NCBI GenBank assembly: GCA_017647975.1
Contig: JAGCJL010000035.1
Span: forward strand, 1 to 33,616
Source: Bacteroidaceae bacterium
Lineage (GTDB): Bacteria > Bacteroidota > Bacteroidia > Bacteroidales > Bacteroidaceae
DNA: 33,616 nt
Reading direction: 5' to 3'
Shown: positions 13,385 to 22,013 of the stretch, piece by piece
How the letters are laid out: each line of letters starts with the position of its first letter
Position numbering within the stretch: the first letter of the stretch is position 1
Notes under the pieces: generated by a model
The model's input: only the letters and a program-made list of their open reading frames with translations
What the model was told of the DNA's origin: nothing
Database searches by the model: none
Program-made: the position numbers and the translations under genes

Positions 13385-14152
13385 ATGGAACTGAACCTTA
13401 AAAAGCCTGTAATATTCTTTGACCTCGAAACAACGGGTACAGATATCTCAAATGACCGTATTGTGGAAATTTGTTATATCAAGGTTTCGCCAGACGGTAA
13501 AGAGGTGGAATATACAAAGCGTATAAATCCGGGAATGCATATCCCCGAAACTGCATCGGCTGTGCATGGCATCTATGACGAGGACGTGAAGGATTGTCCT
13601 ATGTTCAAGGATGTGGCACGTGATATTGCCAAAGAATTTGAAGGTTGTGATATTGCCGGTTTTAATTCAAACCGCTTTGACTTGCCTTTGCTTGCCGAAG
13701 AGTTCCTGCGTGCACAGGTGGATATAGACCTGTCACGTATGAGAGCGATTGATGTTCAGGTACTTTATCACAAACGTGAGCCACGCACACTCTCTGCAGC
13801 ATATAAATTCTACTGCGGAAAGGTGCTTGAGGATGCCCACAGTGCCCTTGCCGACACTCGTGCTACATACGAAGTGTTGAAGTCTCAACTCGATTTCTAT
13901 GATGACCTTGAAAATGATATGGAGAAATTGTCAAAAGAGTCTTCATTCACAAATAATGTCGATTTCGCGGGACGTTTCATTTATGATGAAAATGGCAAGG
14001 AGGTGTTCAACTTCGGTAAGTATAAAGGAATGCCTGTGGATGCGGTTCTTGATCGTGATCCCGGATATTACGGCTGGATGATGAACGGAGAGTTCCCATT
14101 GAATACAAAACAGGTGTTGACACGTATCAAACTGCGTGGTATCAAGAGATAA
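13385..14152 (+). CDS. DnaQ-like 3'-5' exonuclease with C-terminal DUF3820-like module
   Basis: 255 aa. Residues ~8-165 form a DEDDh exonuclease: D13 and E15 in FFDLETTGTD, D99 in GFNSNRFDLPLL, and H152 and D157 in DAHSALADTR, so the active site is complete. Residues ~205-250 (FNFGKYKGMPVDAVL, then DPGYYGWMMNGEFP) match the short DUF3820-type module often attached to such exonucleases. It may serve as a proofreading subunit or as a repair exonuclease. It lies 2 bases after dnaN, which supports a role at the replication fork, but it lacks an obvious clamp-binding tail. Confidence 0.88.
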   Translation: MELNLKKPVIFFDLETTGTDISNDRIVEICYIKVSPDGKEVEYTKRINPGMHIPETASAVHGIYDEDVKDCPMFKDVARDIAKEFEGCDIAGFNSNRFDLPLLAEEFLRAQVDIDLSRMRAIDVQVLYHKREPRTLSAAYKFYCGKVLEDAHSALADTRATYEVLKSQLDFYDDLENDMEKLSKESSFTNNVDFAGRFIYDENGKEVFNFGKYKGMPVDAVLDRDPGYYGWMMNGEFPLNTKQVLTRIKLRGIKR

Positions 14153-14184: not shown

Positions 14185-16266
14185 ATGCTTAAAGGAAAAA
14201 AAATAGTATTGGGAGTAACCGGAAGTATTGCTGCTTATAAGGCAGCGATGCTTCTGCGTCTTTTGGTAAAAGAGGGTGCCGAGGTACAGGTTGTGATGAC
14301 TCCTTCGGCCAAGGAATTTATAACTCCGCTCACAATGTCAACATTGTCGGGCCGTCCTGTGGTTAGTGAATTCTTCAATAACACCGACGGGACATGGCAC
14401 AGCCATGTGGAGATTGGTCTATGGGCCGATGCGATGATTGTTGCTCCGGCAACAGCGTCAACTCTTGGTAAAATGGCGAATGGTGTTGCCGACAATATGC
14501 TTGTAACAACATATCTTTCAATGAAGGCACCGGTGTTCATAGCCCCGGCGATGGACCTTGATATGTATGCCCATCCTTCAACACAAAGAAGTATTTCCAT
14601 TCTTAAGGAGTACGGCAATCACATAATAGAGGCAACTTCTGGAGAACTTGCAAGTCATTTGAGCGGTAAGGGACGCATGGAGGAACCCGAAAAGATTGTA
14701 CAGTGTCTAAAAGATTTTTTTTTTAGCAGTAAGGAACTGACAGGAAAAAAAATCCTTATCACCGCCGGTCCTACATATGAAAAGATTGACCCGGTGCGTT
14801 TCATAGGCAACTACTCTTCGGGTAAGATGGGATGTGCCATAGCCGACGAGTGTGCGTCACGTGGTGCCGAGGTTGTGCTTGTTGCCGGTCCAATGTCAAT
14901 AAGATGTGAACAGAAGGGCATTGAACGAATCAATGTGGAATCGGCAAGGGAAATGTATGATGTCGCAATGGAAACATTCCCTTCGTGTGATGCAGCGATA
15001 CTGACAGCGGCTGTTGCCGATTATCGCCCGGCAGTACAGGCTGACGAAAAGATAAAGCGTTCAGGTGATAGTATGACAATAGAACTGGAACCTAATAAAG
15101 ATATCGCAGCATCGCTTGGTAGGGAGAAGAAAGAGGGGCAGTGTCTTGTAGGTTTTGCCCTCGAAACGAATAATGAGTTCGCAAATGCCAACGAGAAACT
15201 TTCCAAGAAGAATCTTGATTTCATTGTCCTTAATTCTTTACAGGATAAGGGTGCCGGTTTTGCTCATGATACAAACAAGGTGACAATCATCGACAGGATT
15301 TCTTCAACGGAATATCCGTTGAAAAGCAAGAAAGATGTTGCTAAGGATATTGTATCGCATCTCTCAAAACTGTTGTTGATGCTGGTGTTGCTCTTTCTGC
15401 CGTCAATGGTAAAGGCCGACGGGGAAGAACTGAATGCAACGGTGACGCTTAACGCGTCAAAGGTACAGGGTTCAAATACCGAGGTTTTTGAGTCGCTTGA
15501 AGAGGCTCTTGTGGAGTTTATCGGTAACCGCAAGTGGACGGCAAATACTTATGAAGAGGAAGAACGGATTCTCTGTAATTTCAACTTTGTAGTAAACTCA
15601 TACACCAACGACGGCTCTTTTGACTGCTCGTTGATGGTTCAGGCTTCACGCCCCGTGTATGGTTCGTCTTATATGAGTACTCTGTTTAAGTTCGAGGACA
15701 AAAGCATAAAATTCAAGTTTCAGCCATTTGATCGTCTTGATTTTGTTGAGGACAATCTTGACAACAACTTGACAGCGACCATTGCTTTTTATGTTTATCT
15801 TATAATTGGTCTTGACTTTGATTCTATGGGCGAGCTTGGTGGCAGTGAATTCCTTAACAAGGCTTTGAATATTGCCAATAATGCTCAGAATCTTGGGGAT
15901 ACCGGTTGGAAAATCGGTGGTGGAAACAATAATAGATATTCCATTATCGATGATTATATGAACGGTGCAATGGAGCCTGTACGCAAATTGATGTATCAAT
16001 ATCATCGTTTGGGGCTTGACACAATGTATAAAAATGCCGAAAATGGCCGAAAGGTAATTACAGAGAGCATGTCCCTTTTGAAAAAGGCTTATGAAGACCG
16101 CTCGTTGGCATATTTCCCGAAACTCCTTGTCGAATATAAGGTTGACGAGATTATAAATATTTATTCAAAGGGAACACCGGAGGAGAAGAAAACCGTTGTG
16201 GATATATTGTCCGACATAAACCCTTCGCTATCTTCGGAACTTGAAAAAATTACACGAAATAATTAG
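14185..16266 (+). CDS. coaBC: CoaBC fused in frame to a PorD-like (DUF4835) domain
   Basis: 693 aa with no internal stop. Residues 1-~392 are a complete CoaBC: CoaC flavoprotein part (VTGSIAAYKAA, SHVEIGLWADAMIVAPATA, PAMDLDMY), then CoaB (ILITAGPTYEKIDPVRFIGN, NYSSGKMG, TAAVADYRP). It makes 4'-phosphopantetheine from phosphopantothenate and cysteine in the cytosol. The flap region reads GELASHLSGKGRM (153-165), without the cysteine found there in E. coli. Residues 396-411 (LLLMLVLLFLPSMVKA) look like a signal-peptide core with a cleavage site. 413-693 match DUF4835, annotated PorD-like in type IX secretion (ELNATVTLNASKVQGSN, GNRKWTANTYEEEERI, YKVDEIINIYSKGTPEEKK). In relatives these are, from memory, two adjacent genes. 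Alternatives are internal initiation near M399 or an assembly error. Confidence 0.85.
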   Translation: MLKGKKIVLGVTGSIAAYKAAMLLRLLVKEGAEVQVVMTPSAKEFITPLTMSTLSGRPVVSEFFNNTDGTWHSHVEIGLWADAMIVAPATASTLGKMANGVADNMLVTTYLSMKAPVFIAPAMDLDMYAHPSTQRSISILKEYGNHIIEATSGELASHLSGKGRMEEPEKIVQCLKDFFFSSKELTGKKILITAGPTYEKIDPVRFIGNYSSGKMGCAIADECASRGAEVVLVAGPMSIRCEQKGIERINVESAREMYDVAMETFPSCDAAILTAAVADYRPAVQADEKIKRSGDSMTIELEPNKDIAASLGREKKEGQCLVGFALETNNEFANANEKLSKKNLDFIVLNSLQDKGAGFAHDTNKVTIIDRISSTEYPLKSKKDVAKDIVSHLSKLLLMLVLLFLPSMVKADGEELNATVTLNASKVQGSNTEVFESLEEALVEFIGNRKWTANTYEEEERILCNFNFVVNSYTNDGSFDCSLMVQASRPVYGSSYMSTLFKFEDKSIKFKFQPFDRLDFVEDNLDNNLTATIAFYVYLIIGLDFDSMGELGGSEFLNKALNIANNAQNLGDTGWKIGGGNNNRYSIIDDYMNGAMEPVRKLMYQYHRLGLDTMYKNAENGRKVITESMSLLKKAYEDRSLAYFPKLLVEYKVDEIINIYSKGTPEEKKTVVDILSDINPSLSSELEKITRNN

Positions 16267-16275
16267 TATAGCATA

Positions 16276-17940
16276 ATGCTGAAACATATAACAATACGGA
16301 ACTTTGCACTCATAGAGCACGTGGAGGTTGATTTCTCTTCGGGCTTTTCGGTTATTACTGGTGAGACTGGTCATGGTAAATCGGTCTTTCTTGGTGCTAT
16401 ATCAATGTTGCTTGGGCAACGTTCCGATGTAAAATCCATTCGTGAAGGAGCCGACAGATGTATAATTGAGGGTTGCTTCGATATTTCTGATTTTGACCTT
16501 AAACCATTCTTTGAAGAGAATGAACTCGATTATGACAACGAATGTATTATTCGTCGTGAGGTTGCTTCAACAGGGCGTAGCAGGGCTTTTGTGAATGACA
16601 CTCCTGTTGGTGTGTCGCAACTTAAGGAACTTGGTGCAAGACTCATAGATATTCATTCTCAGCATCAGAACCTGTTGCTTGGTGACAAGAATTATCAGCT
16701 TGGAGTACTCGATGTACTTGGTGGTGACAGCACTCTTCTTGGCGAGTATCGTGCAATGTATGAAAAATATATCTCATTGCATCGCGAGGTGTGCCGAATG
16801 AGAGAGGAACTTGAAAAGAGCCGTCACGATGAGGAATGGCTGCGTTTCCAACTTGATGAATTGGAGGCAGCTAAGCTCAAGGAGGGGGAATTTGATGAAC
16901 TTGAACAGGAGATACAGGAACTCTCGCATGCCGAAGAGATAAAGTCGGCACTTTATGGAGCATATAACAATATCGACGGTTGTGAAACACAAAGCCCGTT
17001 GCAATTGTTGCGTGAGGCATCTCATGCACTTTCTCGTATAGCAAGCCATTATAGTGCGGCAGGAGAATTGTCGGAGCGTCTTGAAAGCAACTATATTGAG
17101 TTGAAGGATTGTTGCGATGAGATATTGCAACGTGCCGAGCGAATAAACTTTGCACCGGACCGTCTTGAGTTCGTTGAGAACCGCATGGCATTGCTCTGTA
17201 ACTTGCAGAAGAAACATCGTGTTGCATCGGTTGATGAACTTATTGCTGTACAGAAAAGCGTGAGTGAGCGTCTTGATACAATAACATCGGGCGATGACAA
17301 CATAAGGGATGCCGAAAAGAAACTTGAAGCTTTGCGTCTCTCTTTGTCGGAGTTGGCAGGCAAATTGACCGAGGTGAGAAAATGCGGTGGAAGCAAGTTG
17401 GAACGTGAGATAAAAGAAATCCTTGTGAATCTTGGTATGCCAATGATTCGTTTTGAGGTGGATTTTACTGCAACCGATGGATTTACGTCGCATGGATGTG
17501 ATGTCGTTACATTCCTCTTCTCGGCCAACAGCAGCAGTGCTCCGCAACCGCTTTGTGATGTTGCATCGGGTGGCGAGATGGCACGTGTGATGCTTGCATT
17601 GAAATCGCTTGTGGCATTTGAGGTGAACCAGCCAACATTGATTTTTGACGAGGTGGATACCGGTGTTTCGGGTGTACTTGCCGAACGTATGGGACGTCTT
17701 ATGGCTCAAATGGGTGGAGAAAAACGTCAGGTACTGAGCATAACCCACCTGCCACAGGTTGCAGCACTTGGCAAGCAGCATTACAAGGTATATAAGGAAG
17801 AGACCGAAAAGGGAACAATAACAAATATGGTAAAACTTGAACAGCAGGAACGTGTTCGTGAAATTGCACAGATGATGAGTGGCGAAGTACTCACTGACGC
17901 GGCAATGGACAATGCGGCACTCTTGCTTTCGCAATCATAA
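16276..17940 (+). CDS. recN: DNA repair protein RecN
   Basis: 554 aa SMC-like ATPase that acts early at double-strand breaks. It starts MLKHITIRNFALIEHVEVDF, with Walker A GETGHGKS (29-36; the usual alanine before the last GKS is histidine here). Residues ~155-230 and ~285-385 form the two coiled-coil arms. The C-terminal half contains the signature DVASGGEMARVMLALKSL, Walker B PTLIFDEVDTGVSG, and ITHLPQVAALGKQHY with the switch histidine. Length is standard. It begins 9 bases after the coaBC-PorD fusion and is followed 6 bases later by rlmB. Confidence 0.96.
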   Translation: MLKHITIRNFALIEHVEVDFSSGFSVITGETGHGKSVFLGAISMLLGQRSDVKSIREGADRCIIEGCFDISDFDLKPFFEENELDYDNECIIRREVASTGRSRAFVNDTPVGVSQLKELGARLIDIHSQHQNLLLGDKNYQLGVLDVLGGDSTLLGEYRAMYEKYISLHREVCRMREELEKSRHDEEWLRFQLDELEAAKLKEGEFDELEQEIQELSHAEEIKSALYGAYNNIDGCETQSPLQLLREASHALSRIASHYSAAGELSERLESNYIELKDCCDEILQRAERINFAPDRLEFVENRMALLCNLQKKHRVASVDELIAVQKSVSERLDTITSGDDNIRDAEKKLEALRLSLSELAGKLTEVRKCGGSKLEREIKEILVNLGMPMIRFEVDFTATDGFTSHGCDVVTFLFSANSSSAPQPLCDVASGGEMARVMLALKSLVAFEVNQPTLIFDEVDTGVSGVLAERMGRLMAQMGGEKRQVLSITHLPQVAALGKQHYKVYKEETEKGTITNMVKLEQQERVREIAQMMSGEVLTDAAMDNAALLLSQS

Positions 17941-20375: not shown

Positions 20376-22013
20376 ATGCTACTCTTCAAATGCTTCATAT
20401 CTATATTGTCAATGTTGTCTATGAATTTATATTCTATAGAAACGGCTGACGTTGTCGTAACATCTGCAACTGATAAAGATGAAGAGTTGTATAAGGCAGG
20501 TGTTGAAGCATTTAAGATTGCAGAATATTATAATGCTGTAAGGTTTTGGCGTGAGGCTGCCGGGAATGGTCATGCAAAGGCACAGTGTAACTTGGGCTCG
20601 TGTTATTCTAAGGGTCTTGGTGTTATAAAAGATGACAACAGGGCTTTCAAGTGGTATAAAAAGTCGGCAGAGCAGGGTGATGCCACAGCACAATGTAATC
20701 TTGCAAACTGTTTTCTAAATGGTGTTGGTGTGCGTCAGGATGTTGAAAAAGCTGTCGATTGGTATCTCTTATCGGCCGAAAATGGCAATTTACAAGCGTT
20801 GACCTCTCTTGGTATATGCTATCGTTTGGGTTGTGGAACAACGCAAGATATAGATGAGGCTGTTAAATGTTTTCAACAGGCTGCACAGGGTGGTTTTGCC
20901 GAGGCACAGAATGAACTTGCCGACTGCTATTACAACGGGAACGGTGTATTGCAGAATTATAATGAAGCGTTCAGGTGGTACAATAGTGCTGCCGCTAAAG
21001 GGCATATAATTGCCCAACGCAGTCTTGGCGTGTGCTATGAAAACGGTCATGGTGTTCCTGTAGATAAAAGTGCCGCAGTGGAGTGGTATAAGAAAGCTGC
21101 ATTTCAAGGTGATGCCGAGGCACAGTTCTATTTGGGAGAGTGCTGTTATTGGGGAATAGGAATGAAAACCGATTGGGGCGAGTCTATTCTCTGGTACGAA
21201 AAAGCAGCCAAGCAGGGTTTTGCTGATGCTCAATACAGGCTTGCCGAGTGTTATTTTGCTGGCGAGGGTATCGATGCCAATTACAAAATGGCTTACTCGC
21301 TGTTTCAAAAAGCAGCTTGGCAGAAACATCCTGCTGCAATTTGTCAGCTTGCCGGGTGTTATTACACCGGTCTTGGTGTAGATATGAATCTTGAAAAAGC
21401 CTTTGAATTATATACAACGGCTGCAGAACTCGGTAATGCCGATGCCCAGTATTATCTTGGTGAGTGTTACCAGAACGGAGAAGGGGTAGAGTCCTCTATT
21501 GAAAAGGCTGTGGATTGGTATGAGAAAGCTGCAGAGCAAGGACAACCTGCCGCAATGAATAATCTCGGGGCACTCTTCTTTCATGGCATAGTCTTTAAAC
21601 AGGATTATGAGATAGCGATGGAGTTTTTTACTCATGCCGCTGAAAAGGGTAATCCTGAGGCTTTTTTTAATCTTGGTAATTGCTACTATTGGGGCTATGG
21701 TGCCGAACAGAACTATCTTACTGCAGCAAGATATTTTATAAGGGCTGCAGAACGCGGTAATGTCGGTGCCCAATATAATCTTGGAATATTATATTATCGA
21801 GGAATGGGTGTGACACAGAGTTATAGCGAGGCTGTTATGTGGTTGACAAAGGCCGCTGATAATGGATATCATCAGGCACAATATGATTTGGGAGTTTGTT
21901 ATTATAATGGTCAGGGTGTTGCAAAAAACTTTAATAAAGCAGCCGAATTATGGAAACAGTCGGCAAGGCAGGGTAATGAGGATGCTATAAAAGCTCTGCG
22001 AAGTATTAAATAA
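20376..22013 (+). CDS. Exported Sel1-repeat protein (13 repeats)
   Basis: 545 aa. Residues 1-~20 resemble a signal peptide (MLLFKCFISILSMLSMNLYS). From ~55 to the end there are 13 Sel1-like repeats of ~36 residues, each centred on A-x-AQ-x-x-LG-x-CY-x-x-G-x-GV, plus a terminal partial helix (DAIKALRSIK). A cysteine occupies the same position in 11 of the 13 repeats. Sel1 arrays form curved solenoids that bind proteins or peptidoglycan-modifying enzymes; the partner is unknown. It closes the dnaN run and is followed by a strong terminator. Pairing with the TPR protein upstream suggests a shared envelope scaffold role, by inference. Confidence 0.9.
   Translation: MLLFKCFISILSMLSMNLYSIETADVVVTSATDKDEELYKAGVEAFKIAEYYNAVRFWREAAGNGHAKAQCNLGSCYSKGLGVIKDDNRAFKWYKKSAEQGDATAQCNLANCFLNGVGVRQDVEKAVDWYLLSAENGNLQALTSLGICYRLGCGTTQDIDEAVKCFQQAAQGGFAEAQNELADCYYNGNGVLQNYNEAFRWYNSAAAKGHIIAQRSLGVCYENGHGVPVDKSAAVEWYKKAAFQGDAEAQFYLGECCYWGIGMKTDWGESILWYEKAAKQGFADAQYRLAECYFAGEGIDANYKMAYSLFQKAAWQKHPAAICQLAGCYYTGLGVDMNLEKAFELYTTAAELGNADAQYYLGECYQNGEGVESSIEKAVDWYEKAAEQGQPAAMNNLGALFFHGIVFKQDYEIAMEFFTHAAEKGNPEAFFNLGNCYYWGYGAEQNYLTAARYFIRAAERGNVGAQYNLGILYYRGMGVTQSYSEAVMWLTKAADNGYHQAQYDLGVCYYNGQGVAKNFNKAAELWKQSARQGNEDAIKALRSIK

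Follow-up and report, generated by a model that had tools for sequence, protein, structure and literature searches.

Introduction

One gene can give rise to two proteins when a signal peptide lies inside the encoded chain. The cytochrome b-c1 precursor FbcH of Bradyrhizobium is made in this way: one gene yields one chain, and cutting of its internal signal peptide produces two proteins. In FbcH, the N-terminal part is integral to the membrane and belongs to the same complex, whereas the gene described here has in that place a soluble enzyme of metabolism that is not known to be connected with the protein behind it. The gene lies on contig JAGCJL010000035.1 of assembly GCA_017647975.1 from a Bacteroidaceae bacterium, of which we analysed positions 1-33,616; this whole stretch of 33,616 nucleotides is referred to as the window. 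In a single frame (14185..16266, plus strand, as are all features below) it joins CoaBC, an essential enzyme of a vitamin pathway composed of phosphopantothenoylcysteine decarboxylase (CoaC) and phosphopantothenate-cysteine ligase (CoaB), to PorD, an accessory extended-translocon subunit of the type IX secretion system (T9SS). Both domains are those of known families, and FbcH provides a precedent for an internally processed precursor.

The two partners have been described separately. CoaBC of M. smegmatis is depicted, in the part of that study we draw on, as a dodecamer with CoaC at its core (PMC7794376). Passages on PorD place it in the periplasm as a T9SS subunit, with PorW/SprE as its binding partner at the outer-membrane translocon (PMC8754138, PMC10994853). 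In the P. gingivalis passages, PorD binds PorW and its deletion lowers secretion efficiency (PMC8754138); in those on F. johnsoniae, it binds SprE and its absence is reported to be without detectable effect (PMC10994853). A further described system is of interest for the interior of the CoaBC half. According to passages on dnaX of Thermus thermophilus, a run of nine A residues within the gene causes transcriptional slippage and half of the product is shorter than the standard one (PMC1088944).

A single reading frame joins CoaBC to PorD

The frame starts with the ATG at 14185 and runs for 693 codons to a TAG (16264-16266). TIGR00521 (coaBC) matches residues 2-392 with 442.3 bits, against a curated cut-off of 219.7, and both catalytic domains are present: the CoaC domain (Flavoprotein, PF02441, 7.8e-36; residues 5-178, 14197..14718) and the CoaB domain (DFP, PF04127, 1.6e-71; residues 185-369, 14737..15291). 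The CoaBC C-terminal tail (residues 370-395, 15292..15369), which is probably helical, has a Lys-rich end by charge count that replaces the n-region of a signal peptide. It is followed by a predicted internal signal peptide (15370..15417) with a core at about residues 396-406, a c-region at 407-411 and a predicted signal peptidase I cut after Ala411 (VKA-D). The rest of the frame is PorD (DUF4835), whose predicted mature periplasmic domain covers residues 412-693 (15418..16263; PF16119, 2.8e-99; NF052317, 1e-103). Pfam DUF4835 spans residues 415-689 with 332 bits, and NF052317, the T9SS_PorD model of NCBI, covers residues 397-689, the signal-peptide part included, with 346.4 bits against a cut-off of 170.

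Frame reading and family models thus confirm the original prediction of one uninterrupted 693-codon CoaBC-PorD frame with a signal-like joint, and the boundaries it gave (CoaBC to about residue 392, the segment 396-411, PorD from 413) were correct to a few residues. PorD is here neither a separate gene nor headed by an N-terminal signal peptide; the architecture differs from that of its family and the domain is retained. Compared with the CoaBC family, the fused form lacks a stop at its end and carries a signal peptide and PorD instead. A search with a profile built from PorD retrieved no solved structures at E<=1.

The fused frame is conserved in two sister genera

We next considered the genus of the window (g1, 44 genomes) and its sister genus (g24, 37 genomes). 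The fused gene matched in 42 of the 44 g1 genomes; it was full length without a stop in 41 and split in two at contig ends in G035, and it was not found in G016 (75% complete) and G031 (55% complete). Matches were present in 36/37 genomes of g24, 33 of which span the full length with no stop, and the gene was not found in G156 (90% complete). One of the remaining three g24 genes is truncated by a contig edge. The other two, in G676 and G678, are broken in the linker between CoaC and CoaB, one by an N gap within a poly-A tract and the other by a frame-changing deletion, with the joint open throughout. The CoaBC/PorD joint is therefore in frame and open in all 78 cases (42 in g1 and 36 in g24), and the stop codon that the original prediction had proposed to look for at the junction in related genomes is absent across both genera. 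Matching genomes carry a single copy at E<=0.001, save for three genes lying in two pieces, so that, within the completeness of these drafts, CoaBC must come from the fused gene.

A tree was built from CoaBC together with PorD for a sample of 27 of the 78 fused genes and for 32 unfused genes. One branch, with a Shimodaira-Hasegawa-like approximate likelihood ratio (SH-aLRT) support of 94, separated the two sets, in a short search in which the outgroup did not form one side of a branch. A single origin of the fusion would be the simplest reading of this tree. In a sample of the family (301 genomes, 286 matching, 27 of 30 genera), stop-free full-length frames were confined to g1 and g24 among the matches listed; these were sorted, such that an intact fusion is expected high in the order and one cut by contig ends could escape. 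The other family matches listed were full length with one or two in-frame stops, or ended near residue 400. Among the matches listed for the order (198 genomes, 174 matching), a frame of more than 369 aa around PorD occurred only in the genome of the window. The class sample (149 genomes, 139 matching) yielded no further fusion. Two other frames of more than 400 aa were examined there and rejected as fusions: in that of 548 aa, PorD starts at an ATG of its own in a frame other than that of CoaBC, and for that of 406 aa CoaBC was not found in the 5-kb stretch.

The gene order around the fused gene is recognisable in unfused relatives, judged by eye on translated frames. The fused PorD sits between coaBC and recN, as in the unfused relatives that have PorD at this place. 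Long CoaBC frames in six Bacteroidaceae were also considered as fusions and rejected; they reflect either an overlapping frame or an in-frame neighbour that lies beyond the stop of CoaBC. In five of these six stretches (L166-L169 and L171), tblastn at E<=1e-5 detected no PorD, and the frame after CoaBC is RecN-like. Some lineages thus seem to have lost PorD at this position.

PorD has lost its own start at the joint

Unfused relatives show a CoaBC stop followed by the PorD signal peptide. In the fused genes, the Lys/Arg-rich CoaBC tail leads directly into the hydrophobic core, and the aligned distance from CoaBC to PorD is 54-66 nt, compared with at least 80 nt in the unfused rows (tblastn, end to end). 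To compare both groups we applied a common rule, namely a start codon 15-40 codons before the cut with K/R within the next 6. By this rule, an ATG-started charged signal can be encoded in only 4/78 fused genes, against 67/72 distinct unfused genes, where PorD is a separate gene with its own signal peptide. No ATG at all lies within 30 codons of the cut in 11/78 fused genes. PorD's own start, along with its n-region, is lost in the fused genes.

With its start erased and the enzyme ahead of the signal, PorD would have to go through an internal signal. The charged n-region of this signal is not at the protein N-terminus; about 395 CoaBC residues precede it, and their tail supplies the charge. 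The 16 residues before the core have a net charge of +1 to +4 in 77/78 fused genes and of 0 in one. The best 15-aa Kyte-Doolittle (KD) hydropathy averages 2.46 across the 78 genes, with a minimum of 2.06. After about 11 hydrophobic residues there is a near-invariant Pro (59/60 aligned fused genes), and with this short core the segment resembles a cleavable signal rather than a permanent anchor. At the site aligned with the old cut, the -3/-1 residues fit signal peptidase I in 78/78 genes by a permissive rule, with AxA in 44. Passages on the Q-rule describe Gln after the cut for most signal peptidase I substrates of Bacteroidetes (PMC5837995), and Gln stands at +1 in 71/72 unfused and 53/78 fused genes.

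A subgroup of g1 departs from the Q-rule in its own manner. In 24/60 genes (L001-L020, L024, L025, L027 and L029), the QEL at the start of mature PorD is replaced by (E/D/other)GEEL or a related sequence, as in EGEEL or DGEEL, at residues 412-415.

Both halves are constrained in T9SS-bearing genomes

Summed ratios of nonsynonymous to synonymous substitution rates (dN/dS) were 0.05 for CoaBC and 0.04 for PorD (16 pairs), and 0.19 for the h-region of the signal (15 pairs). Retention of residues was counted by alignment column rather than by individual catalytic residue. By this count, 85 unfused genes share 120 invariant (>=97%) CoaBC columns, of which 111 are retained in 97% or more of 60 fused genes; the remaining nine differ in 2 to 23 of the 60. 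For PorD, 23 of 29 such columns are kept at the same level. The CoaBC half thus resembles its family in its full-length match over the cut-off, in its invariant columns and in being the single copy; the PorD half does so in its full-length match above the cut-off, its coaBC-recN position and the secretion system of its host.

The T9SS is present in the host genus. SprA was detected in 44/44 g1 and 37/37 g24 genomes, and GldM in 43/44 g1 genomes, with both at 0/14 in the controls. Por_Secre_tail was detected in 44/44 g1 genomes, and also in 2/14 controls.

Alternative explanations for the joint

From the sequences, we regard synthesis of one chain followed by cleavage as the best reading of the joint, and as a likely one. 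A trivial explanation would be a sequencing or assembly error that deleted a stop codon. The genome of the window is indeed a draft, 79.7% complete in 95 contigs, and two related assemblies are broken in the linker, one of them within a homopolymer. However, the joint in the window contains no long homopolymer, and it is open in every one of the 78 separate genomes of two genera. We rejected this explanation, which would need one error common to all these genomes and is extremely improbable. Another possibility is that two proteins are made from one frame, with ribosomes restarting for PorD near M399 or at another ATG, GTG or TTG. When GTG and TTG are allowed under the common rule, a start ahead of a charged stretch is possible in 48/78 fused genes (71/72 unfused), and TTG makes up 0.208 of Leu codons at the joint against 0.158 elsewhere (60 genes). 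Yet GTG is not enriched, since its share of Val codons is 0.365 at the joint against 0.363 elsewhere (60 genes), and 30/78 fused genes lack a candidate start of any of the three kinds. Nor is a start column conserved: the best ATG column, inside the hydrophobic core, is occupied in 21/60 aligned fused genes, and the ATG of M399 (15379..15381), also within the core, in 7/60. With so few genes able to encode an ATG-started charged signal, M399 was rejected as the main route. Restarting as a general source of PorD thus appears unlikely; there is no conserved restart, but weak or lineage-specific internal starts may occur in some genes.

One-chain synthesis could also end in an uncleaved bitopic protein, in which the joint is a permanent transmembrane anchor between a cytosolic CoaBC and a periplasmic PorD. 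ToxR/CadC-like proteins are a precedent for such an N-in/C-out arrangement, and the topology is identical to that expected before cleavage. The fused core is also more hydrophobic than unfused signal peptides, with a 12-aa maximum KD mean of 2.87 against 2.59 (60 and 79 rows, which are not independent). But a core of about 11 residues ahead of the Pro is short for an anchor, and the -3/-1 residues, kept throughout, would be needless for one. PorD moreover works at the outer-membrane translocon according to the passages cited above (PMC8754138, PMC10994853), which would be awkward under an inner-membrane tether. We therefore think a permanent anchor improbable. Several observations nevertheless weigh against one-chain synthesis with cleavage. 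Besides the candidate GTG and TTG starts and the TTG share at the joint, the ATG-plus-charge rule also fails in 5/72 unfused genes, the +1 residue is other than Gln in 25/78 fused genes, and the signal features were judged by hydropathy and residue rules, of which the -3/-1 rule is permissive. The original prediction had left open a tethered chimera, cleavage at VKA or a restart near M399; of these, the chimera, most likely cleaved, is favoured and the restart is disfavoured.

Homopolymers mark the linker between CoaC and CoaB

The linker between the two CoaBC domains carries a run of ten T residues in the window (GAT TTT TTT TTT; 14715..14724), a candidate transcriptional slippage site. A run of at least eight T is found at the linker in 30/41 g1 genes, and one of at least nine in 26/41. 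Synonymous shuffles (300), which ignore the shared ancestry of the genes, gave a mean of 4.7 genes with T>=8 and a maximum of 10. Phe codons at the linker are 70 TTT and 15 TTC, against 495 and 599 outside it. These codon counts and the shuffles are non-circular, unlike the TTT fractions at columns 178-179, for which the gene set was chosen by its T run. In L007, the Asp is changed to Gly and the T run is kept.

In g24, the same linker carries A9-A11 in 33/33 genes. KKK stands there in 47 genes (32 of g24 and 15 unfused); 46 of them write it as AAAAAAAAA, and the exception still reaches A10 via a neighbouring codon. Where the same place reads xKK, AAAAAA is used in only 18/67. Homopolymer-bearing linkers occur in most of the fused genes L001-L036, L126-L144 and L216-L229, and in the unfused genes L038, L040-L042, L088, L092, L160, L162, L232, L235, L236 and L241-L244.

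We then asked where translation would end after a shift of one base. In the 30 g1 genes, the frame closes after a mean of 5.1 codons (later frame), compared with a mean of 15.6 and a minimum of 11.0 in 200 shuffles. In 32 g24 genes, closure comes after 1.4 codons (-1) and 9.0 codons (+1), compared with 7.8 and 17.6, and is below all 200 shuffles. The computed slipped products of the 30 g1 genes are 179-198 aa long and contain the entire CoaC domain. Like the nine-A run of dnaX, the linker tract lies within a gene and slippage would give a shorter-than-standard product. It differs in that it separates CoaC from CoaB-PorD, consists of T8-10 or A9-11 depending on the lineage, and is a slippage site only by candidacy.

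Judged by these patterns, the linker homopolymer probably yields CoaC alone via transcriptional slippage. Ribosomal -1 frameshifting at U-UUU-UUU would be another way to such a product, but a common downstream stem was not evident in the 30 genes (single folds, inspected by eye), and transcriptional slippage is preferred for this reason. Another reading is that the tract is a neutral or amino-acid-driven repeat, or hypermutable and functionless, and we give this a substantial, although minority, share of the probability. Replication slippage is able to create such runs. Runs are shorter than eight in 11/41 g1 genes, A>=9 is also found in 15/115 unfused genes (T>=8 in 0/115), so the tract is not bound to the fusion, and early shifted stops could be mere damage control; in the 15 unfused KKK genes, shifted frames close near the low end of the range seen in the shuffles but not outside it. 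All of these points count against a dedicated slippage site in the fused genes. A neutral repeat, however, does not readily account for T runs in three times as many g1 genes as in the most extreme shuffle, for the near-exclusive codon choice at KKK when xKK linkers mostly avoid AAAAAA, or for shifted frames that, in each of the two fused genera, close sooner than in any of the 200 shuffles. The short tracts in g1, and the tracts in some unfused genes, mean that the homopolymer accompanies the fusion but did not cause it.

Two further homopolymers were noted. Among 34 other A/T runs of at least nine examined in the genome of the window, six lie in frames of at least 200 codons by a mechanical test, and four of these six are at most 12 codons from one end of the frame. 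One T9 (L201, G000 contig 56) lies well inside a frame of at least 361 codons, whose product looks by eye like a multi-helix membrane protein resembling a polysaccharide flippase; the run is possibly another slippage site. Close to the start of the CoaBC gene, in its first 40 nt, a run of at least eight A (LKGKKI; 14196-14203 in the window) is present in 12/41 g1 genes, against a mean of 1.2 and a maximum of 4 in 100 shuffles, and is perhaps linked to translation initiation.

Genomic surroundings

The fused gene is preceded by an RNase_T-type exonuclease (13385..14152; PF00929, PF20600) and followed by a RecN/SMC-type ATPase, taken as RecN (16276..17940; PF02463). A domain search identified a DNA polymerase III beta subunit and an SpoU methylase as further neighbours. 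Elsewhere, the window encodes a BspA-type leucine-rich-repeat protein (991-2364) and a protein with 13 Sel1 repeats (20376-22013).

Discussion

We propose the following course of events. The common ancestor of the two sister genera, which form a group of Bacteroidaceae gut bacteria, would have undergone an in-frame fusion of coaBC to the adjacent porD, with removal of the coaBC stop, the intergenic stretch, and the PorD start and n-region. We infer that the ribosome now produces one chain and that its CoaBC part would fold in the cytosol. Using the Lys/Arg-rich tail of CoaBC as its n-region, the short hydrophobic core would act as a Sec signal in N-in/C-out orientation, and PorD would pass the inner membrane through Sec. 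Signal peptidase I would then cut after the A-x-A-like motif and free periplasmic PorD for the T9SS. A hydrophobic stub, about 16 residues long, would remain at the C-terminus of CoaBC and serve as an inner-membrane tether unless trimmed by an intramembrane protease. Transcripts longer or shorter by one base at the linker homopolymer would end just past CoaC and thus provide CoaC alone as well.

Taken as a whole, one gene with two devices would give three products: CoaC by slippage at T9/A10, a tail-anchored CoaBC, and a periplasmic PorD freed by signal peptidase. A folded enzyme would be the obligate passenger of a Sec signal, and CoA synthesis would take place at the membrane. For this complete scheme we claim a chance that is appreciable but somewhat below even. 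If fused CoaBC assembles like its mycobacterial counterpart, twelve membrane-tailed chains per dodecamer would be an unusual load, and a mixed dodecamer that takes in free CoaC subunits could carry fewer of the tethered arms.

We know of no description of an architecture in which an exported protein has its start erased and an internal cleavable signal lies behind a soluble enzyme. PorD and CoaBC were not found together in the open-access literature, a search that leaves most subscription papers outside. Slippage in coaBC was likewise not found in the open literature; in the portions seen of a Blochmannia genome paper, coaBC appears in a figure legend and slippage is treated generally for frameshifted genes.

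For annotation, the fusion means that either family model used alone would miss half of the gene. The homopolymer, written in different letters in different lineages (T8-10 or A9-11) and present in some unfused relatives too, suggests a route to CoaC apart from CoaBC in Bacteroidales. The fused gene itself looks like a stable natural example of an exported protein that has lost its start and has a soluble enzyme, about 390 residues long, ahead of its signal peptide. If this is true, the way in which Sec handles N-terminal cytosolic passengers, and the fate of signal-peptide stubs, would become testable in a conserved system.

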